Positions 539 through 45,783 of a DNA stretch of 64,000 nt are shown here, piece after piece. The notes beneath the pieces were generated by a model. The model was not told where the DNA came from. It did no database searches and was given only the letters and a program-made list of their open reading frames with translations. This DNA comes from Pseudeuparius sepicola (lineage: Eukaryota > Arthropoda > Insecta > Coleoptera > Anthribidae), in assembly GCA_963920635.1 (NCBI GenBank), contig OY987300.1:57929415-57993414 (forward strand), written 5' to 3'. Within the stretch, counting starts at the first letter, position 1. Every line of letters starts with the position of its first letter. The position numbers and the translations under genes were made by a program.

Positions 539-584
<46 letters not shown>
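539..584. repeat. (AT)n microsatellite
   Basis: Uninterrupted AT dinucleotide run directly abutting the left end of the 326-bp ribozyme repeat array. Confidence 0.95.
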
Positions 585-587
<3 letters not shown>

Positions 588-639
588 AAAAGGTGATAAT
601 GGGCAAACACTCAAAGTTAACAAAAAGAAAAAACTAGTA

Positions 640-684
640 ACCGCATACACGTGTTTCATGCTATTTGGCAATCATCAGTACGGT
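640..684 (-). ncRNA. Hammerhead ribozyme, type I, copy 1
   Basis: Minus-strand RNA. Stem I is ACCGUA with UGCGGU (six pairs, one G-U). Core CUGAUGA, stem II UGC/GCA closing a CAAAUA loop, then GAAA, palindromic stem III CACGUG, and cleavage site UA. All invariant core bases of the hammerhead consensus are present. Stem III has no loop, as in ribozymes known to act better as dimers. Confidence 0.88.
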
Positions 685-965
685 GTAACATTAACCAAAT
701 CAAAAGATAGGCATGATTTGGGAAGCAACAAATGAAGTCCAGGCAGGAGCCAACAGCACATTTGCAGCTTCAGTCAGCACATCCCCTATTTTGGGGCTTG
801 TACTAACATCGCCACGGAGGCTGCTAAAGCGACCTGCGTGGAAATCTTCATAACCCAAGATACAATGACAATAAGGATGTAAGATTAGCGAGTGTAAATG
901 TAATAATTACAAGAAAAGGTGATAATGGGCAAACACTCAAAGTTAACAAAAAGAAAAAACTAGTA

Positions 966-1010
966 ACCGCATACACGTGTTTCATGCTATTTGGCAATCA
1001 TCAGTATGGT
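966..1010 (-). ncRNA. Hammerhead ribozyme, type I, copy 2
   Basis: Same fold as copy 1. One base change in stem I (ACCAUA instead of ACCGUA) creates a C-A mismatch. The catalytic core is unchanged. Confidence 0.85.
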
Positions 1011-1291
1011 GTAACATTAACCAAATCAAAAGATAGGCATGATTTGGGAAGCAACAAATGAAGTCCAGGCAGGAGCCAACAGCACATTTGCAGCTTTAGT
1101 CAGCACATCCCCTATTTTGGGGCTTGTACTAACATCGCCACGGAGGCTGCTAAAGCGACCTGCGTGGAAATCTTCATAACCCAAGATACAATGACAATAA
1201 GGATGTAAGATTAGCGAGTGTAAATGTAATAATTACAAGAAAAGGTGATAATGGGCAAACACTCAAAGTTAACAAAAAGAAAAAACTAGTA

Positions 1292-1336
1292 ACCGCATAC
1301 ACGTGTTTCATGCTATTTGGCAATCATCAGTACGGT
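1292..1336 (-). ncRNA. Hammerhead ribozyme, type I, copy 3
   Basis: Identical to copy 1. It lies in the last, truncated direct unit, just before the orientation switch at 1368/1369. Confidence 0.88.
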
Positions 1337-1371
1337 GTAACATTAACCAAATCAAAAGATAGGCATGATAC

Positions 1372-1416
1372 ACCGTACTGATGATTGCCAAATAGCATGA
1401 AACACGTGTATGCGGT
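1372..1416 (+). ncRNA. Hammerhead ribozyme, type I, copy 4
   Basis: First copy of the inverted arm. CUGAUGA at 1378-1384, GAAA at 1399-1402, predicted cleavage after UA between 1410 and 1411. It faces copy 3 tail to tail across the junction, so a transcript through both would fold into a long hairpin. Confidence 0.88.
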
Positions 1417-1697
1417 TACTAGTTTTTTCTTTTTGTTAACTTTGAGTGTTTGCCCATTATCACCTTTTCTTGTAATTATTACATTTACACTCGCTAATCT
1501 TACATCCTTATTGTCATTGTATCTTGGGTTATGAAGATTTCCACGCAGGTCGCTTTAGCAGCCTCCGTGGCGATGTTAGTACAAGCCCCAAAATAGGGGA
1601 TGTGCTGACTGAAGCTGCAAATGTGCTGTTGGCTCCTGCCTGGACTTCATTTGTTGCTTCCCAAATCATGCCTATCTTTTGATTTGGTTAATGTTAC

Positions 1698-1742
1698 ACC
1701 GTACTGATGATTGCCAAATAGCATGAAACACGTGTATGCGGT
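1698..1742 (+). ncRNA. Hammerhead ribozyme, type I, copy 5
   Basis: Sequence identical to copy 4, and 326 bp from it. Cleavage of the intervening RNA at both sites would release a 326-nt monomer. Confidence 0.88.
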
Positions 1743-1975
1743 TACTAGTTTTTTCTTTTTGTTAACTTTGAGTGTTTGCCCATTATCACCTTTTCTTGTA
1801 ATTATTACATTTACACTCGCTAATCTTACATCCTTATATATATATATATATATAAATTCGGTCATTTGGTCAGCGGGATGTGCTGACTGAAGCTGCAAAT
1901 GTGCTGTTGGCTCCTACCTGGACTTCATTTGTTGCTTAGCAAATCATGCCTATCTTTTGATTTGGTTAATGTTAC

Positions 1976-2020
1976 ACCGTACTGATGATTGCCAAATAGC
2001 ATGAAACACGTGTATGCGGT
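1976..2020 (+). ncRNA. Hammerhead ribozyme, type I, copy 6
   Basis: Identical core and stems. It lies 278 bp after copy 5 because the unit between them is partly replaced by a (TA)n tract. Confidence 0.88.
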
Positions 2021-2301
2021 TACTAGTTTTTTCTTTTTGTTAACTTTGAGTGTTTGCCCATTATCACCTTTTCTTGTAATTATTACATTTACACTCGCTA
2101 ATCTTACATCCTTATTGTCATTGTATCTTGGGTTATGAAGATTTCCAGGCAGGTCGCTTTAGCAGCCTCCGTGGCGATGTTAGTACAAGCCCCAAAATAG
2201 GGGATGTGCTGACTGAAGCTGCAAATGTGCTGTTGGCTCCTGCCTGGACTTCATTTGTTGCTTCCCATATCATGTCTATCTTTTGATTTGGTTAATGTTA
2301 C

Positions 2302-2346
2302 ACCGTACTGATGATTGCCAAATAGCATGAAACACGTGTATGCGGT
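2302..2346 (+). ncRNA. Hammerhead ribozyme, type I, copy 7
   Basis: Identical core and stems, 326 bp after copy 6. The unit is cut short at about 2441. Confidence 0.88.
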
Positions 2347-2519
2347 TACTAGTTTTTTCTTTTTGTTAACTTTGAGTGTTTGCCCATTATCACCTTTTCT
2401 TGTAATTATTACATTTACACTCGCTAATCTTACATCCTTATAAAAAATATTAATGGAGCAACAGAGAAAATATACCTATATAAGTATTTTCTAAAATATA
2501 TTTGTGGCGTAAACAGATC

Positions 2520-3517
2520 CATTGAATTTTAATTGGGTTTTTCGCCACCAAACTGGTTAAAAAGCAACTTTTTCAAGTTGCCTGGAAAATTAATAAATTC
2601 TTAACAGTAAATGAACTAAACTTTGAACTTGTAACTCAAAAAATATCTTCAACAAATTTGTTTCCTGAGCTGAATAGTTATCCTACTGAATTTATTGAGC
2701 AAGTTTTTCAGGATTGCCAACAAAATAACAATGCTAATAGAATTAGAGAAATTAATGTGGTGGACCGACCAGTAAATTTAATTATTCCTTATTATATTCC
2801 TGGCCTATCAGATGAGCTAAAACGCATAGGCAATCGTTTTAATGTCAGAACAGTATTTAAAACCAAAAATACATTGAGATCGATGCTAGTTAAAACGAAA
2901 CCATTTAATGAGGTACAAAGTTCAAAAAATTGCATTTATAAAATTCCTTGCGAATGTGGAAAGTTCTATGTTGGGGAGACTTGTACGCCATTTAACGTTC
3001 GTTTAAAAGAACATAAAAATTATATCAGGCAAAATCAAATTTCGAAGTCGAAAATATGTGAACACTCTTTTAATAAAAATCATAGGATTTTGTAGGATAG
3101 TTCCAAACCAATTCTCAAAGAAGAAGTAGGAAATAGCCGAAAAATTAAAGAATTAGCATTTATTCTAGGAAATACAGACAACTGTGTTGCTGAATGTTCA
3201 GTTGAATTCAGGTAAAATATTATTGCCACTTATTCAAAGAGAAGTTAGTATAAATAATTAGGTAGAACACAGGGTACAATATCAGACATGTGGCTAGGCT
3301 ATTGTTTCTGTTGTCATGACATTTAACCTGAAATTTATTAATCTGCCATTTCACTTTGACGTGACAGGATCTTTGAGAAAGGGGGTTGAAGATATTTTTT
3401 GAATTACAAGTTCAAAGTTTAGTTCATTTACTGTTAAGAATTTATTAATTTTCCAGGCAACTTGAAAAAGTTGCTTTTTAATCAGTTTGGTGGCGAAAAC
3501 CCAACTAAAATTCAATA
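2520..3517. repeat. ~135-bp inverted repeat enclosing the Penelope remnant
   Basis: Arms 2520-2654 and 3382-3517 are near-perfect reverse complements. The left arm is part of the same open frame as the Penelope coding sequence, so the right arm is an inverted duplicate of coding sequence. Penelope insertions commonly carry such inverted fragments. Confidence 0.85.
2526..3215 (+). pseudogene. Penelope-like element, C-terminal RT thumb/GIY-YIG fragment
   Basis: A frame open from 2526 to a TAG at 3093-3095 continues in the same frame to a TAA at 3213-3215. The final part reads as the C-terminus of a Penelope polyprotein. A segment with the YYIPGLSDELKRI type of motif and the KTKP stretch is followed by a GIY-YIG endonuclease core: KIPCECGKFYVGET, then a conserved Arg in NVRLKEH and a CEH...NH pair. 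The TAG sits where a Trp is usual after the NHRI motif, so one nonsense change separates this from an open C-terminus. The reverse transcriptase body is absent, so this is a 5'-truncated dead copy. Penelope elements prime reverse transcription with this endonuclease. Family assignment is firm; exact ends are not. Confidence 0.85.
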
Positions 3518-11349: not shown

Positions 11350-11414
<65 letters not shown>

Positions 11415-11675
11415 TTATTTATCACAATTTTATGATTCACAGATATTGTTTATGACAACTAGAAAAAAGTAAATCAACTTTAATATAAAGTTAAATTTGG
11501 TTAACCATTTACATACAATAACCTAGGAAATAGAGTTAAATTTTAATTAAAAATTTGTTAGAAGCAAAAAGAATATGTCAAATTTCCTTTACAAATACTC
11601 TGACTGTTCAGTGTTCAGCGCTATAGGTAGGTACTTTAAACTTTGATTCTTAAGTTTGAACTGAGTGTATCGTTG

Positions 11676-11735
<60 letters not shown>

Positions 11736-12000
11736 TTATTTATCACAATTTTATGATTCACAGATATTGTTTATGACAACTAGAAAAAAGTAAATCAACT
11801 TTAATATAAAGTTAAATTTGGTTAACTATTTACATACAATAACCTAGGAAATAGAGTTAAATTTTAATTAAAAATTTGTTAGAAGCAAAAAGAATATGTC
11901 AAATTTCCTTTACAAATACTCTGACTGTTCAGTGTTCAGCGCTATAGGTAGGTACTTTAAACTTTGATTCTTAAGTTTGAACTGAGTGTATCGTTGCTTA
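11350..12000. repeat. 321-bp tandem duplication punctuated by (TA)n
   Basis: Segments 11411-11678 and 11732-12000 are almost identical (one obvious difference, AACCATT versus AACTATT). Each is preceded by a (TA)n microsatellite of about 55-60 bp. The duplication breakpoint coincides with the microsatellite, suggesting slippage or unequal exchange there. Confidence 0.9.
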
Positions 12001-20325: not shown

Positions 20326-21130
20326 TCTTGGTCTGCTTGAGCCACAGGGTTACAAACACGCCAAACAAACATATACGTCATCATCGCCGCTTGATTTTGG
20401 CGGTTTTACTGTTGTCGGCTTCTTAAATGTCATAATCTTTTTTGTTTTCCTGTAGCTTCTGTAACTGTTTTCTTTTGTTTTTCTTCATACTCGATCCTAA
20501 TTTTTCTTTTTATGGCGTATTTGTGTATATGGCAGAATGTATTTTCTGTGTTCTCTTTAGGTACTTTCTCTTTATTGGGTGGACCCTTCAGAAAATATAT
20601 AATTAGGATTAAATCTTTCGATCTCTCATTGGTCATTGGTGATTTGATGCAGTCTCATTTGTGGTTGCCTGAGTATTTCTTCCATGGATGGATTTCTGCT
20701 TGTATAGATGGTAAATCTCTGCTTGTAGAAATAGTTATGTTGTGCTTGTGGAAGGTTGAATGGTGATTGTGGATGGTTTAGATGCACCGGGCTTCGATTG
20801 ATTCGCTGTTAGTTTAATTTAGTTGCCCTCGGGGACAATTATTGTACCGGTACAATCGTTCCAATCGCGTTCGTTTTTTCTATAATATTCTAGGGAAAAA
20901 TAAGCAACGGCAGGCAATTTAAAAAGAGTAATAATAGTCTGATTACCTACCAGTTAAAACAATCAACTGCATTACGCTGAAGTCTTCATATTTAACAAAA
21001 TGAATATTTAGTGTCCCCATTATAATTTTAAAAGAAATGGCTTGTGGCATATGGGACAAAATGCTTTGGTAATTCGCAACACCAAACTAGTTTCCAATAT
21101 CTAATGAAAATTATGTATGGGTCTTTCGGA
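20326..21130. other. Non-coding, nothing recognised
   Basis: No supported feature apart from the 3' flank of the hammerhead below, which may belong to the same element. Confidence 0.35.
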
Positions 21131-21197
21131 GGTGTGCAGACCACGACAGGTACCTGTTTCGGGCTTGTTGGCCCTCATCAGGCAGACGTAGCGCACC
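21131..21197 (-). ncRNA. Hammerhead ribozyme, isolated
   Basis: Minus-strand core: CUGAUGA (21175-21181), stem II GGGC-loop-GCCC (21161-21174), GAAA (21157-21160), palindromic stem III CAGGUACCUG (21147-21156), cleavage site UC. Stem I starts with C-G, G-U, U-G and C-G pairs and closes again distally with GGUG/CACC. All invariant bases are present and stem II is strong. The design (type I, palindromic loopless stem III) matches hammerheads of Penelope elements and retrozymes. No coding part of such an element is visible nearby. Confidence 0.9.
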
Positions 21198-31689: not shown

Positions 31690-34002
31690 CAGGGTGTCCG
31701 GTAAGTTCGGGGAAATCTCTCGCCAGCGTGTTGGTGACGTCAAAATATACCTGGTGTTTCATATATTTTTTTCCCCTAAAGTACTCCGTAACAGAACTAC
31801 AGGGTCCCAAAGGGGTACTCACTGCTTTACATTTTTTGATTTAACTTTTGAACGCCCTTGTATATTTTGATGAAATTTTGGAATTTTGCATAGACGGTAA
31901 AAACCAATTACCTCATATTTGAATCATGCTTGGACAATGCCGTGGAAGTCAGGAACGGACTTCACGCAATACCCATGGGCTCAAAATTTTGACTGGTATA
32001 AATTTAAAAAGCCGAAAACAATTTTTTTTAAAGCCTTGAACATTTCTCTTCAAAAAAGGTACTCTTTATTCGTTTCGAAAAAGTCAACCGTTTTCATGGA
32101 AAAATCGCTTTTTTGAAATCCGTAACTTAAGATGCAATAATGGAAACTACCAGAATTTAGTGTTTTCACCTGACGGATAACAACAATTACGTGTGACAAG
32201 ATTTGTCAATAATTTTTATTAGCACACTGCAATTTTCAGTAGGCATTAATATCGAGAAAATGAAAAAAAACAATGAAACTGTTTAAAAATAGTTTAATAA
32301 AGTTTGGTTATAAAGAAAATGTTTCGTTTAGTCGGGCAAATGTTCAAAGTGAGCTCCTTCTACCCGAATACATTTTCTTATCCTGCGAATTTTTTCTTGC
32401 TGCACCCTAAACAGCATTTCAGGATCATTTCGAATTTGATCAGAATAGTGAAATATTCTTTCCAATAACTCTTCCCTGGTATTTACAGGAGTTGAATATA
32501 CTAGTCCCTTGAGATGACCCCAGAAAAAAAAATCTAGCGGATTGAGGTCAGGAGACCTAGGTGGCCACAAAACAGGTCCTCCTCGGCCTATCCAACGATT
32601 GTCAAAGTGCTGGGTTAAGTAGAGACGTACCTCCCGGGAATAATGTGGGGGAGCGCCATCGTGCATAAACCACATTTGATTCCTTATTTGTAAGGGCACA
32701 TTTTCCAGTAAATCATTTAAATTATTTTGTAAAAAATGTAAATACAGAGCTCCATTCAAACGTTCATCCAAAACAAAAGGACCAATCAAATTATTCCCAA
32801 TTATCCCTGCCCAAACATTAACCAGAAATCTTTGTTGGTGCTTGATCTGAACTATGGCGTGAGGGTTTTCGTCATGCCAAATGTGCAGATTTCGACTGTT
32901 GGTAATACCGTCTCTCGTGAAGCCAGCTTCGTCGCTAAATAAAACAATTTCTGTGAAACTCGGATCGCCTATAAATTGTTGCAAAAACCAGTTTGCATAG
33001 TTAAGCCGTGGACGATAATCATTCGGAGACATTGCATGCACTTTTTGGACGTGATAAGGATAAAGTAGCTGTTCTCGCAATGTTTCATGAACAACCCCCT
33101 TTGTGGTATTTAACTGAGCTGCAAGCTTACGAACGCTATTAGAAGGGTTTTCGGATATTTCATCCAATATGTGCTCTTCTAAGTTTTGATTTCTTGCTCT
33201 CCTTTGCGGCCCTTCCCCACCACGACGAGGTAAAAAACTACCTAATGTAAATTTTAGGAGACTGATTTAAGACATTCTAAACTCGGTTTGTTTACTACCT
33301 GTTTCTCTTAAACGACGATCAACTCTCACAAATGTTTTTCGATTTGGCAAATTGCGATTTGGAAATCTTTGAGCATAAATTCTGCTTGCCTCCAGAGAAT
33401 TGCAGTGTGCTTGTCCATAAATTAAATGCATGTCTGCATATTCGGCATAAGTATAAAAATGCTCCATTGCTAATAAAAATTATTGACAAATCTTGTCACA
33501 CGTAATTGTTGTTATCCGTCAGGTGAAAACACTAAATTCTGGTAGTTTCCATTATTGCATCTTAAGTTACGGATTTCAAAAAAGCGATTTTTCCATGAAA
33601 ACGGTTGACTTTTTCGAAACGAATAAAGAGTACCTTTTTTGAAGAGAAATGTTCAAGGCTTTAAAAAAATTTGTTTTCGGCTTTTTAAATTTATACCAGT
33701 CAAAATTTTGAGCCCATGGGTATTGCGTGAAGTCCGTTCCTGACTTCCACGGCATTGTCCAAGCATGATTCAAATATGAGGTAATTGGTTTTTACCGTCT
33801 ATGCAAAATTCCAAAATTTCATCAAAATATACAAGGGCGTTCAAAAGTTAAATCAAAAAATGTAAAGCAGTGAGTACCCCTTTGGGACCCTGTAGTTCTG
33901 TTACGGAGTACTTTAGGGGAAAAAAATATATGAAACACCAGGTATATTTTGACGTCACCAACACGCTGGCGAGAGATTTCCCCGAACTTACCGGACACCC
34001 TG
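31690..34002 (-). mobile_element. DD41D-type Tc1/mariner-superfamily transposon, 2,313 bp
   Basis: Starts CAGGGTGTCCGGTAAGTTCG and ends with its exact mirror. TA lies on both sides (31688-31689, 34003-34004). The terminal inverted repeats are about 534 bp (31690-32223 and 33469-34002) with only a few differences, so the insertion looks recent. The right repeat stops one base before the transposase start codon. The transposase on the minus strand is intact apart from a short intron. It sits in an intron of the P transposase, on the opposite strand. Confidence 0.93.
32328..33467 (-). CDS. DD41D transposase (DUF4817-type helix-turn-helix), one 57-nt intron
   Basis: Coding parts 33467-33299 and 33241-32328 give 360 residues. 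The intron 33298-33242 has donor CAG|GTAGTA and acceptor TTACATTAG|G; it is a multiple of three but contains a stop, so splicing is needed. Residues about 1-55 form the DUF4817-like head (YADMHLIYGQAHCNSLEASR). The splice joins RETGS to FLPRRGG, as in related transposases. A second helix-turn-helix follows (SVRKLAAQLNTTKGVVHETL). Catalytic residues are Asp160 (FSDEAGF), Asp251 (MHDGAPPH) and Asp293 (PDLNPLDFFFWG), with 41 residues between the last two. The C-terminus has the hallmark GAHFEHLPD. It cuts and pastes the element at TA. No disabling change is visible. Confidence 0.9.
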
Positions 34003-34261
34003 TATTCACAAACTGTTATTATAGTATACACACCCAAATTTATATGACATAACGCATTATTTGCGATAATTTTTTTGTCAAAAAAATTATATGTCATGGA
34101 AAGTCAAAAGTGTTTACTAACAAAAACAGTTAAATGTGAAAAACCCGACAATATAAATTGTAATAAATATTAAGTGATTCCATATTATAAGTTTGGGTGT
34201 GTGTACATATATTGTAATTTTTTGTATTACTTATTTTGTTATTGAATAATTCTATTTTTAG

Positions 34262-36228
34262 ATGCTAGTCAACAAACTTCTCTTAGTTTGAGTGCACATA
34301 GTCCGAGAAAGCATTCATTAAAGTTACAAATAAAAAAACTCCAAAGAAAGTTGCATCCGAAGTTGGAGCAAGCTGTCGACAGTGCCGACACTGAAATAAA
34401 TGACGAACAATTTCTTGCCATTTGTGAGAAAAAACTGTCTGCTTCAATGCTACTATTTGTAAGGCATTATTTAGAAAATCCCAAAAAAGATCCACAGGGA
34501 TATCGTTACTCTTCAGATATGAAACAATTTTCCTTAACAATTTATTTTCTAAGCCCAAATGCTTATAGATTTTTAATGAAACCACTTTATTTGCCATCTA
34601 AAAGCACTCTTCAAAGAATAACTAGCAAATGGCATATAACTGCAGGTCTTAACAGTTTCATTTTTGAGGTTATTAAATCAAAAGCTACAAATTTAGAGGG
34701 TTCTTCAAAACAGTGCATTCTTTGTATTGACGAAATGTCATTAAAAATGTTTTTATTTTACAATAGATCTTCCGATACCATTGTTGGCTTTCATAATACA
34801 TTGAAGGAAAAAAGATATGCTCCTGCTAAATATGTTTTAGCTATGATGGCTAGAGCAATATTTGCTAAGTGGAAGCAACCAGTTGCTTATTTCTTTATTG
34901 ATACTTGTTCAGGGGAGGATTTAAAATTTATTTTTGAAGCAATAAGGAAACTTAAATCTGTAGGATTACTAGTAAGTACGTTAGTGTCTGATCAAGGATC
35001 AAATTTTGTACAATTTTCAAAATCAGTTGGCATCTCTCCAAACTCTTCACATTTTTATGTCGATAGCGAAAAAATATTTTATATTTTTGATGTGCCGCAT
35101 CTCTTAAAATCAACATGAAATAATTTTTTCAATTACACATTCGAAACCTCTGAAGGATGTACAAATAAAACGTATAGGTATTGACCAAATTTATAATAAA
35201 CAAAAGCATAAGCCTTTGGCTCTTCGGCTGTGTCCAAAATTTACAGATGAACACATTAATTCGAATCCTTTTAAAAAACTGAAGGTTAGTTTAGCCGTCC
35301 AAGTTTTCAGCGCAATGGTAGCTGCGGCACTTAATTCCTTTATTGAATTCGGACAATTCCCCCCTTCGGCAAACGCTACAGTGTCATTTGTAGAAAAAAT
35401 TGATAAGTTATTTGATATCTTAAATTCCTCAAAAATATCAGGCAGTAATACAAGTACAATAGACCTTTCAAAGGAGCAGATTACCAAGTCGATTTTTTAA
35501 AGGAAATGTTTACATATTTTGAGAATATTAAAATTTTAAAACAAAATATAGAGGTTACCAATAAAGTTAAATTTTTGAAAGGGTGGCAAATCACAATAAA
35601 TTCATTTTTAGGTCTTTGGGAAAAATTTCATTGTTTAGAGTTTAGTTCCTTATACACTCGACGCTTAAATCAAGATTGTCTCGAAAATTTTTTCGGCACT
35701 ATTAGGCAGCAAGGGGGAAATTGCTTGAATCCAACCCCCATCCAATGCGAAAGGGCTTTCAAAAAATCATTTTGTTTAAATTATTTCCAACACGCGGATG
35801 GGGCTAATTGTATTGAGGATTTTGATTCATTATTGTCATACGTAACCACCGAACATACACAAATTTACAACAAAGTTGTGGGAAATGCAAGATCTATTTT
35901 TTCTGATTTAAGTTCGATGGCACCAGATTATATTGATTTTGAACTACATGAATCAAATAGTATATCATATGTTTGTGGATATTTATTAAGAAAGTGCTTG
36001 GAACAACATTCATGTGAAGTTTGTATTAAATATTGTAAACGTCATACATTAGGGGATACTGATTTGTTTACTTATTTTAAAGCATACAAATCAAGTGGTA
36101 ACGAAACCTTTGGACATTTATTTTCACCTCCTGATAATTTCCTAAATTATATTAAAATTCTCGAAGTTAATTTTTGTACCCTCTTTCCAAAGTTTGCTTT
36201 AGAAGAAAATGTTGGTGTGAAATTAAAA
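34262..36228 (+). pseudogene. P transposase exon 4, 5' part: catalytic domain
   Basis: Acceptor TTTTTAG before 34262. A coiled-coil-like basic stretch (LQIKKLQRKLHPKLEQ) is followed by the P/THAP9 catalytic core. First Asp in CIDEMSLKMF (codon 34729), second Asp in LVSDQGSNF (codon 34990), final acidic residue in NQDCLENFFGTIR (Glu codon 35683), so the DDE set is still readable. Breaks: TGA at 35116-35118 in the DVPHLLKST motif, a frame change between about 35120 and 35200, and another in a T run near 35493-35505. The frame then runs into the DIRS insertion at 36229. Dead as it stands. Confidence 0.88.
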
Positions 36229-36374
36229 ATTGTATTACCCGCCTCTTCCTTCTAGATCACTATGTAGTTCACTCTTCCGCCGATAGGTGGAGCCACGCAT
36301 TTCAAAGCTAAACAAAGACAACAGTCGAACCAGTCGCCCTCTCGTACTACGCCGCGCTCCAAGGTCACCTCATT
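36229..36374. repeat. DIRS left inverted terminal repeat
   Basis: Mirror of 40891-41036 with a few differences near the outer end (e.g. CCTTCTAGATC versus CCGAATAGATC). The last part may hold the promoter of gag. Confidence 0.9.
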
Positions 36375-36426
36375 GTTCTTTTGCGTGTACGTGGAGTCAC
36401 GTCGCCGCGCTGTCGTTTTTCGCAAT

Positions 36427-37768
36427 ATGAGTAAACGCGCGCGAAATCCGCGTAAACGTGTAATCTCGGATGAAGATGATTCGGATTCCGGTTCGTCGGA
36501 CGAGGTATCTATAATAATGAGACAGTTAAAACTATTATCAAGAAAGGTTTCCCGGCTTAAGAAGAAACGGAAAATTCGCGAGCCTTCCCCAGTGAGTTCG
36601 GACGGTGGTGCACCCGATAACGAATTTTCTCTTCAGAAGTCTAATCCTGATACCTTCGGGCTTGTAGACTATGAACCTTCTGATTCAGGAGGTAAGTACC
36701 TGGTTTTATTTTTTTTTAGGAATTTTTTATTCTAATGTCAACGAGTTTTGACATGAACAATCCACACACCAGCACGCATCCTTTGTTACCTGTTGCTAAC
36801 GAGTTTGGCAATTTTACGGGTATTTTTGAATGGCTTCCTGTTACTTGCTAACGAGTTTGGCAAATTTCAGGGACCTATGTCTAGTACTAGTATAATGGAT
36901 CTGATCACTCACTCAGTAGAAATTTTTACTTACTTGTCGCCCTTCTGTTATAGGGGAGGACAGTGGTGCGGTACCTAATGGTGCAATTCCAGAGGACTTT
37001 CTGGCGCTTCTAGGGAAGAATAGTGTTACAGATCAGACAAACACAGAGGATCTGAACAACGAGCTTGCTCAGATTTGGTCCAAAATATTACAAGAGGGAC
37101 TCGATCCCGAGGTACAAGCTACCATGTCGAAAAAATACTCCCCGCCCAATAACCTGGTTTTCGCCGGTGCTCCCAAACTCAATTTGGAAGTGTTCTCTGT
37201 ACTCACAGAACAACACAAACAACGAGATCAAAGGTTATCTAAGCAGCAAAATCAAATGGGAGCTGCTTTGGTTGCAATTGGCAAAGCAATCACAGTATTG
37301 TTGAAAGAAGAGGGGGGGGCGAACAGAAGAGTGCTTATAGAGTGGCTCAGCGATGCTGGACGTTTACTCTCAGACGTTCATCACGAACAGTCTTCTTGTA
37401 GAAGGACTCTAGTCTCAGTGGATGTTGACAAGCAACTTAGAGCGACGCTCACCAACGTTTCAGTGGATGGTTTGTTATTTGGGAAAAATTTAGGCGAACG
37501 GGTGAAAGCAGCACGTGATTTGGAAAAATTATCGTCAGACCTCAAGCTCAAGACAGTTGTTACCAAACCTACCACTAGCACTAAGCCTTTAAACTTGAGG
37601 AGTCTGCCGCGAGGGAGTTTCGGGGGTTCTCACGGCAGACCGAAATACCCTCCCAGAATGCAGACTCCCGACGCCAAGAGAACTCGGAAGTTTGCTCGGG
37701 CAACGAAGGACAATCCAACATTTTATCGGCGCAACCAAACCAAGGACGATCGAACTCAGACACATTAG
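36427..37768 (+). CDS. DIRS Gag-like protein, one intron
   Basis: Exons 36427-36691 and 36954-37768 join in phase (G|GG) to give 359 residues. The 262-bp intron has donor GAG|GTAAGT and acceptor TTATAG. The N-terminus is basic (SKRARNPRKRV) then acidic/Ser-rich (SDEDDSDSGSSDE) and then basic/coiled (LKLLSRKVSRLKKKRK). The C-terminus is basic and Arg/Pro/Gly-rich, consistent with nucleic-acid binding. No zinc knuckle is seen, as usual for DIRS Gag. The pol frame is open across the gag stop in another frame, so the two products overlap. Confidence 0.78.
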
Positions 37769-39651
37769 AGGTACCTTACAAGTGTGGCAGATTGAGATAT
37801 TTTTTACGCTCCTGGGAATCACTAACCTCAGATAAACGTTTATTATCATGGATTCAAGGTTATAAGATTCCTTTTTCACAAAAACCTTTCCAGAATCATG
37901 TCCCCAATGAACGTAAATCATGGTCCTTAACGGAAGAAAATTTTTTATATGCCGAAATCAAACGGCTTCTTTTATTGGGGGCCATAAGGAGATGTTCTTA
38001 TCGACAAGATCAACTTATTTCAAATATTTTTTTAACACCCAAACATGGTGGATCATTTAGGTTAATTCTAAATCTGAAGGAACTAAACAGGTTTGTTAAG
38101 ACAGAACATTTTAAAATGGAAGACCACAAGATGGTCACCAAGCTTTTGACAAAAAATATGTTCCTTGCATCATTAGATCTCAAAGACGCGTATCATTTGG
38201 TCCCAATACATAAACAACACCAAAAATATCTGAGGTTTGTGTTTGCCGGACAAATTTATGAATACACTTGTTTACCTTTTGGCTTGAACACGGCCCCTTA
38301 TATGTTTACCAAACTGCTGAAGCCCGTATTACATTATTTGCGGCAACGGGGTTTCTTATCGGTATTGTATATTGATGATTTTTTGTTGTTAGGTCGTTCT
38401 TATGTGGAGTGTTTATCGAACGTCAACGCAACTAAAAAATTTTTGTTAGGATTGGGTTTTATAATTAATTCAGAGAAGAGCATACTTATTCCATGCACAA
38501 ATATAAAGTATCTGGGTTTTTTATATAACACTGTTGATATGTCTGTGAGTTTACCTTTTGATAAACAAGAGAGCATTTTAAGACATATTTTCAAAATTAT
38601 GAGTGGTAGTAGGTTTACTATTCAAGAGTTTGCAAGTTTGATAGGTAAATTGATCGCTGCATGTCCAGCTATTAAATACGGTTGGCTTTATACCAAAAAC
38701 TGTGAGAGAGCAAAGTTTTTAGCTCTAAGAAGATCGAGAGGGTCTTATAATCACGATATGACTATTTCTAGTGAAGTTTTAATAGACCTCGCCTGGTGGA
38801 AGACTCTCCTGTCTAGCAAAAATACGTTCCATAGTTTTACTTTTAAACTAGAAATATTCAGTGACAGTTCCCGGTCGGGTTGGGGCGTATACTGCAACGG
38901 TTGTAGGACCCGAGGTTTCTGGTCGACAAAAGATAGGAATAACCATATAAATTACTTAGAACTATTAGCTGCGTTTTTTGGACTTAAATGTTTTGCCAAG
39001 GATCTTGTAAACTGTGAGATTTTGTTACGGATAGACAACACTACTGCCATTTCATATGTGAATAGGATGGGAGGCATTCAGTTCCCTCATCTTAACAATC
39101 TTGCAAGGGGAATGTGGCAGTGGTGCGAACACCACTCACGTAATTTATTTATATTTGCTTCCTACATAAAATCAGATGAAAACACTGTCGCCGATCAAGA
39201 ATCCCGTTACCTAGATACTGAAACGGAGTTTACAATTTCTAATTACGCGTTCAAAGAAATTTGTCGCCTATTGCGAACACCTGAGATAGATTTATTTGCA
39301 TCCAGAATTAATTCCAAATGCAGAAGATTCGCTTCTTGGTTTAGAGACCCCGAATCCGAAATTGTTGATGCATTTACAATATCTTGGGCTAATTATAACT
39401 TCTATGCTTTCCCACCTTTTTCCCTTGTTGCTAAAGTTCTACAAAAAATAATTACGGATAATGCCGAAGGTATCGTGGTGGTTCCTTGTTGGCCAAGTCA
39501 ACCATGGTACCCTCTATTTAAGGTTTTGCTGGTTAAACAGTCAATAATATTCTCTCCTAATATCGACCTATTGTTGTCCATTGACAGGACTCCCCATACT
39601 CTGCACCGGAAACTTTCCCTGGAAGCAGGGCTCTTATCAGGGAAGCGATGA
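37769..39651 (+). CDS. DIRS pol: reverse transcriptase, RNase H, methyltransferase-like
   Basis: Open from upstream of the gag stop; no ATG is present at the head, so the first codon is unknown (TTG at 37792 is the first near-cognate codon). Counting from 37792, about 619 residues: RT with SLDLKDAYH (127-135), LPFGLNTAP (161-169) and the catalytic YIDD (193-196). RNase H acidic residues are Asp358 (FSDSS), Glu390 (YLELLA), Asp415 (RIDN) and Asp468 (VADQES). A DIRS-type methyltransferase-like tail has DLFASRINSK (500-509) and FYAFPPFS (537-544). It copies the element RNA into DNA. The stop overlaps the recombinase start (ATGA). Translation by frameshift or from a separate message is inference. 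Confidence 0.92.
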
Positions 39652-40595
39652 TAATCAAAGGGGTTCCTGAAGAGGCGATTGAGATTCTAATCTCGTCTTT
39701 AACAGAGTCATCTATAAAGCAGTATGGAAACGGGTTTAAATTATGGTGGGAGTTTTGCGTCCAACGGAAATTGAACTGTTTTGAACTAAATATTCATACC
39801 ATATTATACTTCTTAACTTCCTTGTTCAATTTTGGCATGTCATATAGCTCCTTGAATACGATACGGTCAGCCCTAGCAATGCTTATTTCGCCACGAGTTG
39901 GCGATGACCATCAAATCAAAAGATTTTTTAGAGGCGTTTCTAAGCTGCGACCACCTTTGCCTAAATACGATGTAACATGGGACCCGACTATAGTTTTAAA
40001 TTACTTAGACACTTGTTATCCTAACGATATCATTAGTTTAGAAATACTGACTCAGAAAGTATCGATGTTAATGGCCCTGATAACAGCACATAGGGTGCAA
40101 ACATTATCATTAATAGAGGTTCAAAATATTGAAATCTCGAGGGAGAAAATAGAAATAAAGGTTCCGGCCAGGATCAAGACTTCAGCTCCAAATAGATACC
40201 AACCTTTATTATCATTACCTCTTTTTCATGATAAACCCAAACTATGTGCAGCCAGTGCGCTTAATTGTTACTTGAACCGAACCGCTGCTATTAGACAGGC
40301 AGGCAAATTTTCCAAACTTTTTCTGACTTACAAGAAACCTTACAGAGAGGCAACGGCCCAATCTATTAGTCGCTGGATCCGGGTGGTCCTAGACAAAAGT
40401 GGAATAGACACATCAGTTTTTACAGCGCATAGTACGAGACATGCGACCACATCGGCAGCTGTCAACAGGGGTATTAACATCGACACGATACGCAGGATAG
40501 CAGGGTGGACCGCTTCATCTGATGTGTTCGCAAAATTTTATAGGAGGCCTCTAATGAAGGCTGATAGTTTTGCGAATGCAATTTTCATGCAGTAG
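39648..40595 (+). CDS. DIRS tyrosine recombinase
   Basis: 315 residues from an ATG that overlaps the pol stop. The N-terminal SAM-like core-binding region (about 10-105) precedes the catalytic domain. The recombinase signature is complete: Arg149 (TAHRVQTLS), His261 and Arg264 (HSTRHATTSA), Trp287 (IAGWTAS) and the nucleophile Tyr298 (KFYRR). It inserts the circular DNA copy without making a target duplication, replacing the DDE integrase of LTR elements. No breaks are visible. Confidence 0.94.
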   Translation: MIIKGVPEEAIEILISSLTESSIKQYGNGFKLWWEFCVQRKLNCFELNIHTILYFLTSLFNFGMSYSSLNTIRSALAMLISPRVGDDHQIKRFFRGVSKLRPPLPKYDVTWDPTIVLNYLDTCYPNDIISLEILTQKVSMLMALITAHRVQTLSLIEVQNIEISREKIEIKVPARIKTSAPNRYQPLLSLPLFHDKPKLCAASALNCYLNRTAAIRQAGKFSKLFLTYKKPYREATAQSISRWIRVVLDKSGIDTSVFTAHSTRHATTSAAVNRGINIDTIRRIAGWTASSDVFAKFYRRPLMKADSFANAIFMQ

Positions 40596-41710: not shown

Positions 41711-42682
41711 GTAATATTGTGCCTCAGCTAGCGCGTTCGGTTGCTACGACAACGTCCGTATCAATCGGGGGCGGATACTTTTCAGAGTAAACAAGGAATC
41801 ACGGCGAACTCAGGCTAATTGGAACTTTTGTCCGTGATTGAAGGGACAACCCGATTGTGGCTTTTGTGCCAATCTCGGTTAAGTTATCTGTGGTCGTACA
41901 TTACTCGGATTTATTGCTTGTCATAAAATACCCAACTAGTATTTATTACAAAGAAGCTCTGAATTATAGTAATACTGTGCCCCAGCTAGCGCGTTCGGTT
42001 GCTACGACAACGTCCGTATCAATCGGGGGGCGGATACTTTTTCAGAGTAAACAAGGAATCACGGCGAACTCAGGCTAATTGGAACTTTTGTCCGTGATTG
42101 AAGGGACAACCCGATTGTGGCTTTTGTGCCAATCTCGGTTAAGTTATCTGTGGTCGTACATTACTCGGATTTATTGCTTGTCATAAAATACCCAACTCGT
42201 ATTTATTACAAAGAAGCTCTGAATTATAGTAATACTGTGCCTCAGCTAGCGCGTTCGGTTGCTACGACAACGTCCGTATCAATCGGGGGGCGGATACTTT
42301 TTCAGAGTAAACAAGGAATCACGGCGAACTCAGGCTAATTGGAACTTTTGTCCGTGATTGAAGGGACAACCCCATTGTGGCTTTTGTGCCAATCTCGGTT
42401 AAGTTATCTGTGGTCGTACATTACTCGGATTTATTGCTTGTCATAAAATACCCAACTCGTATTTATTACAAAGAAGCTCTGAATTATAGTAATACTGTGC
42501 CTCAGCTAGCGCGTTCGGTTCTTACGACAACGTCCGTATCAATCGGGGGGCGGATACTTTTTCAGAGTAAACAAGGAATCACGGCGAACTCAGGCTAATT
42601 GGAACTTTTGTCCGTGATTGAAGGGACAACCCCATTGTGGCTTTTGTGCCAATCTCGGTTAAGTTATCTGTGGTCGTACATT

Positions 42683-42989
42683 CCTCTGATGTGACCTCTT
42701 ATTTCAAACCGATTTGTGATTTGTTCCCATTTACATTTAACACACAACTAACAGCGAAATTTCTCGAAGGCGCACTACGAAACTTATCGCAACGACAATC
42801 ATTTTCTCCAGTTTACTAATCGGTCACAGTCTGTCTGTCCGCCAAGGGGGCAAACTCTATAGGAAATTACATAAACTCGGCACGGACAAATACAAATGTG
42901 TCCCCGCTGCGTAGCGTGCCGCAAAGGCGAAGCGTGGCGTCCATCGGGCGACGGTATCCACCATCTACCGCAACCGCGCTTCCATTATT
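42683..42989. other. Non-coding, right flank of the tandem array
   Basis: Unique sequence starts precisely at the unit boundary. GC rises toward 42890-42980. Confidence 0.45.
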
Positions 42990-45040: not shown

Positions 45041-45490
45041 GAAAGATTTTTAGTACCTGTAATAAGTATAAATAATAAATGATGTGGCATATCAGGTAAA
45101 AGATATCAATTGAAGAAAATTCACTCCAGCCGGGACTCGAACCCGGGACTCCTACTGTGGCCTTAGGCACTTTAACCAACTAAGTTACCGGAGATACGGG
45201 TTCCATCGGCTAGGTGTTATTTATTCCAATTGATATATAGTTAGTAGCGGTGAGATGTAGGAGACTTCGGCGTCTTCTACAGCTACTAGAAGGGGTTAGA
45301 GGGTGTAGGGTAACCATTCATTATTGTTGGTTATGTAAACTTTATATTCTAAATTATAACTAAATATTCGACATATAGCGACTTAATGCAAGTATCGAAC
45401 GTGGAAATTCTAACCTACAATATCAAGCCAAGAAAATGAAACATAGAAAGATTTTTAGTACCTGTAATAATTATAAATAATAAATGATGT
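45041..45490. repeat. tRNA-derived repeat, first unit, bounded by direct repeats
   Basis: GAAAGATTTTTAGTACCTG plus about 60 further bases occurs at 45041 and again at 45448, a direct repeat some 406 bp apart. The unit contains a minus-strand tRNA-like sequence and a stretch (45255-45320) repeated inverted at 45545-45610. Confidence 0.8.
45123..45194 (-). ncRNA. tRNA-like sequence (SINE head or tRNA pseudogene), copy 1
   Basis: Minus strand: acceptor TCTCCGG/CTGGAGT, D-arm-like GTAACTTAGTTGGTTAAAG, T-arm CCGGG-TTCGAGT-CCCGG with a good polymerase III B box. The anticodon stem is mismatched (CCTAA/GTAGG) and the loop lacks U33. Confidence 0.65.
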
Positions 45491-45783
45491 TTAGTGGTAT
45501 ATCAGGTAAAGGATATCAATTGAAAAAAAATGCACTCCAGCCTGGACTCCTACCCTACACCCTCTAACCCCTTCTAGTAGCTGTAGAAGACGCCGAACTC
45601 TCCTACATCTCACCGCTATTGACTAAATATCAATTGGCCGATGGAACCCGTATCTCCGGTAGCTTAGTTGGTTAAAGTGCCTACGGCCACAGTAGGAGTC
45701 CCGGGTTCGAATCCCGGCTGGAGTGCATTTTTTTCAATTGATATCCTTTACCTGATATGCTACTAAACATCATTTATTATTAA
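45478..45783. mobile_element. Palindromic tRNA-like element (~306 bp)
   Basis: Ends form an inverted repeat of about 60 bp (AATGATGTTTAGT ... GGATATCAATTGAAAAAAA ... GCACTCCAGCC at left, mirror at 45720-45783). The left arm contains a fragment of the tRNA 3' half; the right arm belongs to a complete plus-strand tRNA-like sequence. Confidence 0.75.
45653..45724 (+). ncRNA. tRNA-like sequence (SINE head or tRNA pseudogene), copy 2
   Basis: Acceptor TCTCCGG/CTGGAGT (six of seven pairs), D arm GCTT/AAGT, anticodon stem CCTAC/GTAGG with loop GGCCACA, T arm CCGGG/CCCGG with TTCGAAT. All four arms form, but the loop has G instead of U33, so it is unlikely to be a working tRNA. The B box GGTTCGAATCC is perfect. 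Confidence 0.7.

Follow-up and report, generated by a model that had tools for sequence, protein, structure and literature searches.

Metazoan non-LTR retrozymes have no LTR, PBS or PPT, and their target-site duplications, when present, are longer than 4 bp, according to extracts of PMC7229834. Which enzyme moves animal retrozymes is an open question. Penelope-like elements (PLEs) are regarded as strong candidates, and in the same extracts of PMC7229834 the case is built on the type I hammerheads found in both, on tandem copies and on the co-existence of the two kinds of element. PLE insertions typically carry direct pseudo-LTRs (pLTRs) next to an inverted one, the usual orientation being head to head; one of the inverted repeats may have an additional 31-bp tail, and simple AT-rich targets are favoured (PMC3846280, in excerpt). 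A purified PLE protein from Anolis cuts and extends both DNA strands, and its copying starts inside the RNA at two sites which bound a tail of 30-40 bp (PMC11167929).

The array described here lies at 585-2441 of a window of 64,000 nucleotides, the whole stretch of DNA analysed, which corresponds to C3:57929415-57993414 of the 769-Mb, 16-contig assembly of Pseudeuparius sepicola. An initial annotation had described it as a retrozyme-like 326-bp tandem repeat with one hammerhead ribozyme in each unit. The retrozyme-like character, each unit having one type I hammerhead, is borne out by the unit size, the strand-specific motif, the non-coding sequence and the copies in the genome.

Hammerhead motifs and architecture of the arrays

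The seven 45-nt hammerhead motifs reported by the annotation were found where it had placed them (Table 1). Six are exact and the seventh carries a single stem I change, whereas 100 dinucleotide shuffles gave a mean of 0.00 matches. All seven passed a type I descriptor, i.e. stem I with at least five of six pairs, CUGANGA, stem II with at least three of four pairs, GAA-A, a stem III closed by A-U and a cleavage base other than G. They are open at stem I and closed at stems II and III, which makes them type I. Eight stretches in the whole window passed the descriptor, the eighth being at 21139-21187, and 400 first-order Markov simulations of the window gave no match. The claimed stem I of six pairs is present in six motifs, but five of six pairs are formed in the motif at 966-1010. 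Stem II is short as claimed; a U.U mismatch at its base, which the annotation did not mention, leaves three pairs. Stem III is the palindrome ACACGUGU.

The covariance-model search proposed with the annotation gave a divided answer. No hammerhead was found in the whole window at the Rfam gathering thresholds, whereas at a relaxed threshold all seven motifs in 500-2520 were matched, each below its gathering threshold: five by Hammerhead_HH9 (27.1 bits against a cut-off of 52) and two by Hammerhead_1 (26.5 and 22.2 bits against one of 34). In the bare 45-mer the hammerhead fold (-4.4 kcal/mol) is not the minimum, another fold being preferred at -6.9, but with two 45-mer strands the double hammerhead formed through the palindrome is the minimum (-23.9 kcal/mol). 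Within a transcript the energy above the minimum is 5.2 kcal/mol for one single hammerhead, 6.0 for a double one and 13.0 for two single ones, and the pairs of the single fold have probabilities of 0.001-0.06, all with energy models which disregard tertiary contacts. The predicted fold of the 326-nt monomer is better than that of every one of 100 shuffles (z -3.0). Axolotl retrozymes are cleaved mainly in dimers, and the axolotl HHR_Amex2 has the same U.U mismatch at the base of stem II (extracts of PMC7229834). By analogy, we would expect cleavage of the present element mainly in dimers.

A second, unrelated hammerhead with the full type I descriptor occurs as a single copy in the window at 21139-21187 (minus strand), with a 4-pair stem II, a 12-nt palindromic stem III and a long stem I. 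It is flanked at 20985 and 21420 by a 13-bp direct repeat, TTCATATTTAACA, which may be due to chance in AT-rich DNA. A degenerate form of the array core also matched 2 viral and 24 prokaryote contigs. As none of these 26 loci passed the descriptor at relaxed stem I, they were treated as chance matches.

Units were numbered from the predicted cleavage site, so that phase 0 is the first base past it, at 1411. The 326-bp period stood, complete units differing at 0-3 of 326 bases, except that one spacing of plus-strand hammerheads is 278; phases 101-185 are absent between 1837 and 1875. What did not stand is the single tandem array. Three hammerheads lie on the minus strand and four on the plus strand, head to head, and the units form the two opposed arms of an array A, 97-100% complementary, and a separate, direct array B (Table 1). 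This inverted head-to-head architecture and the fixed ends were missed by the annotation. Array B ends in the 3' direction at phase 100, as does the direct arm of array A, and 37 bp of other DNA, starting with (TA)n, separate the two.

Table 1 Features at and beside the array (positions in the window; phases count from the predicted cleavage site)
Feature	Position	Strand	Remarks
(TA)23 tract	540..585	.	left edge of array A; presumed target
Array A, inverted arm	585..1369	-	~2.4 units, from 1369 (phase 254) to 585 (phase 60)
Type I hammerhead 1	640..684	-	
Type I hammerhead 2	966..1010	-	one stem I change (5/6 pairs)
Type I hammerhead 3	1292..1336	-	
Head-to-head junction, array A	1365..1369	.	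arms match bar one base; short microhomology
Array A, direct arm	1365..1837	+	~1.45 units, from 1365 (phase 280) to 1837 (phase 100)
Type I hammerhead 4	1372..1416	+	predicted cleavage 1410/1411
Type I hammerhead 5	1698..1742	+	predicted cleavage 1736/1737
(TA)10 tract	1835..1854	.	right edge of array A; shares 2-3 bases with the unit end
Array B, direct only	1875..2441	+	~1.74 units, from 1875 (phase 186) to 2441 (phase 100)
Type I hammerhead 6	1976..2020	+	predicted cleavage 2014/2015
Type I hammerhead 7	2302..2346	+	predicted cleavage 2340/2341
Open frame, 189 aa	2526..3095	+	adjoins array B

Runs of (TA)n with at least nine repeats make up 0.28% of the window, yet they adjoin both edges of array A. 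The right-hand tract is presumably a duplicate of the target tract on the left, and with (TA)n at both sides the length of the target duplication is undefined. No target-site duplication is evident at array B.

Nine phases vary among the copies in the window and each change is private to one copy, which supports the recent spread at this locus that the annotation had proposed. Compared with the copy at 1411-1736, there are 2 changes in 1258 bp of array A, one junction base being omitted, and 6 changes in 567 bp of array B (Fisher p 0.013). This contrast, together with the common end at phase 100, favours two separate insertions, array B being the older; a single array with a replaced segment is the less likely alternative. 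The unit is non-coding with a GC content of 0.405, the longest open stretch in the repeated unit being 77 aa, and no further copy that might serve as an LTR was present elsewhere in the window.

The open frame next to array B is probably a neighbour and not a part of the retrozyme. On account of a motif, it may be the remnant of a Penelope-like GIY-YIG endonuclease. It had one relative (P0001, 67% identity over 50%), no Pfam match up to E 1 and no PDB match, and the structure prediction of 139 aa (pLDDT 33) was not usable. As Pfam and PDB gave nothing, the frame is an unconfirmed PLE candidate. An inverted copy of its first 126 bp lies at 3385-3510 (95%).

Further repeats and transposons were observed in the window. 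At 11357-12000 there is a 321-bp direct duplication with an identical 300-nt core, the unit of which starts with (TA)n, and at 41711-42690 a 260-bp tandem repeat of 3.8 copies; neither had an Rfam match up to E 0.1. The region 32328-40595 holds a DDE_3 transposase, a P-element-like transposase in pieces and a pair of RT and tyrosine recombinase, presumably of the DIRS type. The few named relatives of two neighbouring transposon proteins are mostly from beetles (Callosobruchus, Photinus, Ignelater, Sitophilus, Popillia); the rest comprise one moth, one dragonfly and a record of Rickettsia that bears the name of a weevil host. Two near-identical tRNA-like genes in inverted orientation, at 45122-45194 (minus) and 45653-45725 (plus), could be tRNA-derived SINEs.

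Copies and array ends across the genome

The annotation had asked for related copies elsewhere in the genome, and these are abundant: the ribozyme core gave 5431 matches with up to two mismatches (2647 + 2784 on the two strands) and the reversed core none on either. The first 100 of the listed matches, all exact, form 34 clusters of 1-13 motifs over 12.4 Mb, 18 of them being single motifs and two having 13. A set of 20 pieces of 10 kb, spread over the genome, contained no unit, which is little informative because the density is about 7 motifs per Mb. Among the same 100 matches, neighbours within 500 bp were head to head in 10 cases and tail to tail in 2 (p 0.04), a bias that is weaker within 1000 bp (10 and 3, p 0.09). 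At C1:3142673-3146286, 13 motifs are spaced by 299 bp instead of 326 bp, and this array would be a shorter unit variant amplified in place.

Array edges were read in seven clusters of core matches, at locus L078 and in the window. Where the 3' edge, in the sense of the RNA, touches other DNA, it lies within 3 nt of phase 60 or phase 100 in 12 of 18 cases, mostly against AT-rich DNA. The remaining six ends are at phases 106, 78, 76, 68, 40 and 16, several of them in old copies. The 5' edges, both joins and truncations, are scattered, none of 18 falling in these zones. When the window, on which the zones had been defined, was omitted, 9 of 15 3' edges and 0 of 15 5' edges were in the zones (Fisher p 0.0007). 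A single (TA)n at C1:973769-980581 is flanked by two of these 15 3' edges, and dropping one of the two leaves 8 of 14; taking one 3' end per cluster leaves 4 of 8 (binomial p 2e-4). That (TA)n, between two retrozyme arrays, is split by a terminal-inverted-repeat element, CAGTGTGACCC... (about 977815-978765). Five of the seven head-to-head joins read overlap by 3-5 nt and two are gapped, by 2 and 4 nt. At locus L078, ATAAGTT is found at both flanks. The ends that were read showed neither a poly(A)-like nor a common 3' tail of the unit.

The two ends were also counted genome-wide, as the unit up to a given phase followed by ten A/T letters. Phase 100 gave 791 places (404 + 387) and phase 60 gave 448 (231 + 217), while the single control phase, 240, gave none on either strand and the reversed junction patterns of all three phases none. 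The phase-60 count is an upper bound because the native sequence beyond this phase has one G, so that a single change mimics an end; the phase-100 count is cleaner because three bases would need changing. Eleven phase-60 places were read in letters: five run into (TA)n, four look like internal copies and two adjoin other A/T sequence.

Adjacent ends listed within 3 kb of each other in C1:0-90.1 Mb face outward in 34 pairs and inward in 6 (p 8e-6), with 17 same-strand pairs. Twenty-six of the outward pairs combine one end at phase 60 with one at phase 100, three are 100/100 and five are 60/60, whereas by hand calculation about 16 of 34 pairs would be mixed if the 62 and 100 ends were drawn freely. 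A spacing of 189 bp is common to three of the 60/60 pairs, and these may represent a single derived element in several copies. The stretch between the two ends, phases 61-100, has an A+C content of 0.525, which places it 43rd among 326 windows, compared to 0.43 in the unit. The resemblance to the AC-rich start site of PLEs is weak and was not used as evidence.

Possible mode of insertion

Ribozyme anatomy, copy number, the two favoured 3' ends, the outward-facing bias and the AT-rich flanks are best explained by a metazoan-type non-LTR retrozyme, multimers of which would be cut by the hammerheads and inserted in trans by a PLE protein via target-primed reverse transcription. We consider this probable. 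Multimeric transcripts of the non-coding 326-nt unit would be cut by the type I hammerheads, probably acting in pairs, and the 326-nt monomers would probably form RNA circles. A PLE protein acting in trans would cut AT-rich DNA, often a (TA)n tract, and both DNA ends would prime copying of the retrozyme RNA. Copying would begin at either of two internal sites, at phase 60 or 100 and thus 40 nt apart, and may traverse several units, after which the two cDNAs would be joined head to head, mostly via short microhomology. Array A would stem from a single event of this kind that started at both phases, 60 and 100, and array B from a second, one-sided event with a start at 100.

As the arms exceed one unit, a multimeric or circular template is needed. 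A circle would fit the published retrozyme model, linear multimers being the alternative, and the simplest reading would be that a PLE enzyme copied the RNA. It is possible, though we put it at a little under even, that each head-to-head array records how a PLE reverse transcriptase, starting from the two ends of a single DNA cut, travelled round an RNA circle made by the ribozyme. In that case the retrozyme would carry, in phases 60-100, a mimic of the PLE tail and would parasitise the enzyme, and the length of each arm would count the laps around the circle. Against the explanation by a retrozyme moved by a PLE protein are the Rfam scores under the curated cut-offs, the single hammerhead not being favoured in energy, the 6 of 18 3' ends at other phases, the internal copies among the phase-60 places, the weaker head-to-head bias of motif pairs within 1000 bp and the lack of an evident target-site duplication at array B. 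Other two-ended target-primed mechanisms are an alternative as movers.

It seems unlikely that the units are instead the pLTRs of one PLE, multiplied without its gene, so that the supposed retrozyme would be an assemblage of solo pLTR arrays. The pLTRs of PLEs do bear type I hammerheads and occur in tandem and head to head (PMC3846280, PMC11167929 and PMC7761336, in excerpt), but the PLE hammerhead variants described in the excerpts of PMC7761336 are usually without stem III, which the array hammerhead has. The possible PLE remnant beginning 85 bp from array B would suit such an origin, whereas the unit itself has no open frame longer than 77 aa and is not repeated downstream of the remnant within the window.

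Mobilisation by another non-LTR retrotransposon (LINE), with inverted arms arising from twin priming, is slightly less likely again. Twin priming by LINEs leads to 5'-inverted copies with short homology at the join, but the second primer starts at variable places. The outer ends of the present arrays lie mostly at two fixed places, one of each in 26 of 34 pairs, and no poly(A)-like or common tail was noticed among the ends read. LINEs have been named as possible movers of retrozymes in the extracted text of PMC7229834.

An ordinary satellite, spread and homogenised by unequal crossing-over or gene conversion with the hammerhead as a passenger, is very improbable. The two clusters of 13 motifs, one regularly spaced at 299 bp, are what local amplification would give, and a satellite process may have contributed to the growth of the longest arrays. 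However, the 34 clusters are small and dispersed, more than half being single motifs, and the window array carries private changes only; favoured 3' ends alongside scattered 5' ends refute dispersal as a satellite. An assembly or library fold-back artefact, as the near-complete complementarity of the arms might suggest, is hardly credible, since the arms are of unequal length and end at different phases, the DNA to the right is not an inverted copy of that to the left, and head-to-head arrays are found at other loci too.

For the retrozyme moved by a PLE protein, two 3' ends 40 nt apart, outward arms and AT-rich targets provide evidence at the level of mechanism, of a different kind from that in PMC7229834 and open to counting wherever a genome with retrozymes has been assembled. 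They further mark the 40-nt stretch as a candidate site for binding and start of copying by a PLE protein. Such evidence on how retrozymes move appears to be new: a phrase search, which other wordings escape, found no open-licence paper pairing 'retrozyme' with 'head-to-head'.

Comparison with known systems

Plant LTR retrozymes likewise carry a hammerhead in a non-autonomous repeat and are thought to be mobile through circular RNA (PMC4918200 and PMC7761336, in excerpt). Their hammerheads are, however, of type III, and they have LTRs of about 350 bp, PBS and PPT and 4-bp target duplications (excerpts of PMC7761336), whereas the present element has type I hammerheads. In insects, pDo500 of Dolichopoda cave crickets (PMC2837043, in part) is a tandem repeat with a hammerhead; it is from another insect order and is likened here by its description only.

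Metazoan non-LTR retrozymes are described in extracts of PMC7229834 as non-coding tandem repeats of 150-450 bp with a GC content below 50%, one type I hammerhead per unit and thousands of dispersed copies. The 326-bp unit is alike in all of these, and by the features tested the element fits a metazoan non-LTR retrozyme. It differs in its head-to-head inverted arms and its two favoured 3' ends 40 nt apart; the words 'inverted' and 'head-to-head' are absent from the main text of PMC7229834 (Cervera and de la Pena 2020).

With PLEs that carry hammerheads (PMC3846280 in excerpt, PMC11167929) the element shares head-to-head repeats, AT-rich targets and a type I hammerhead, and the alternative ends of PLEs, set apart by a tail of 30-40 bp, resemble its own two ends. 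It is not itself a PLE, because a gene for RT and GIY-YIG endonuclease is absent from the non-coding unit, and its hammerhead, unlike most published variants of theirs, has a stem III. By analogy, then, these are insertions of a retrozyme that are built like those of PLEs.
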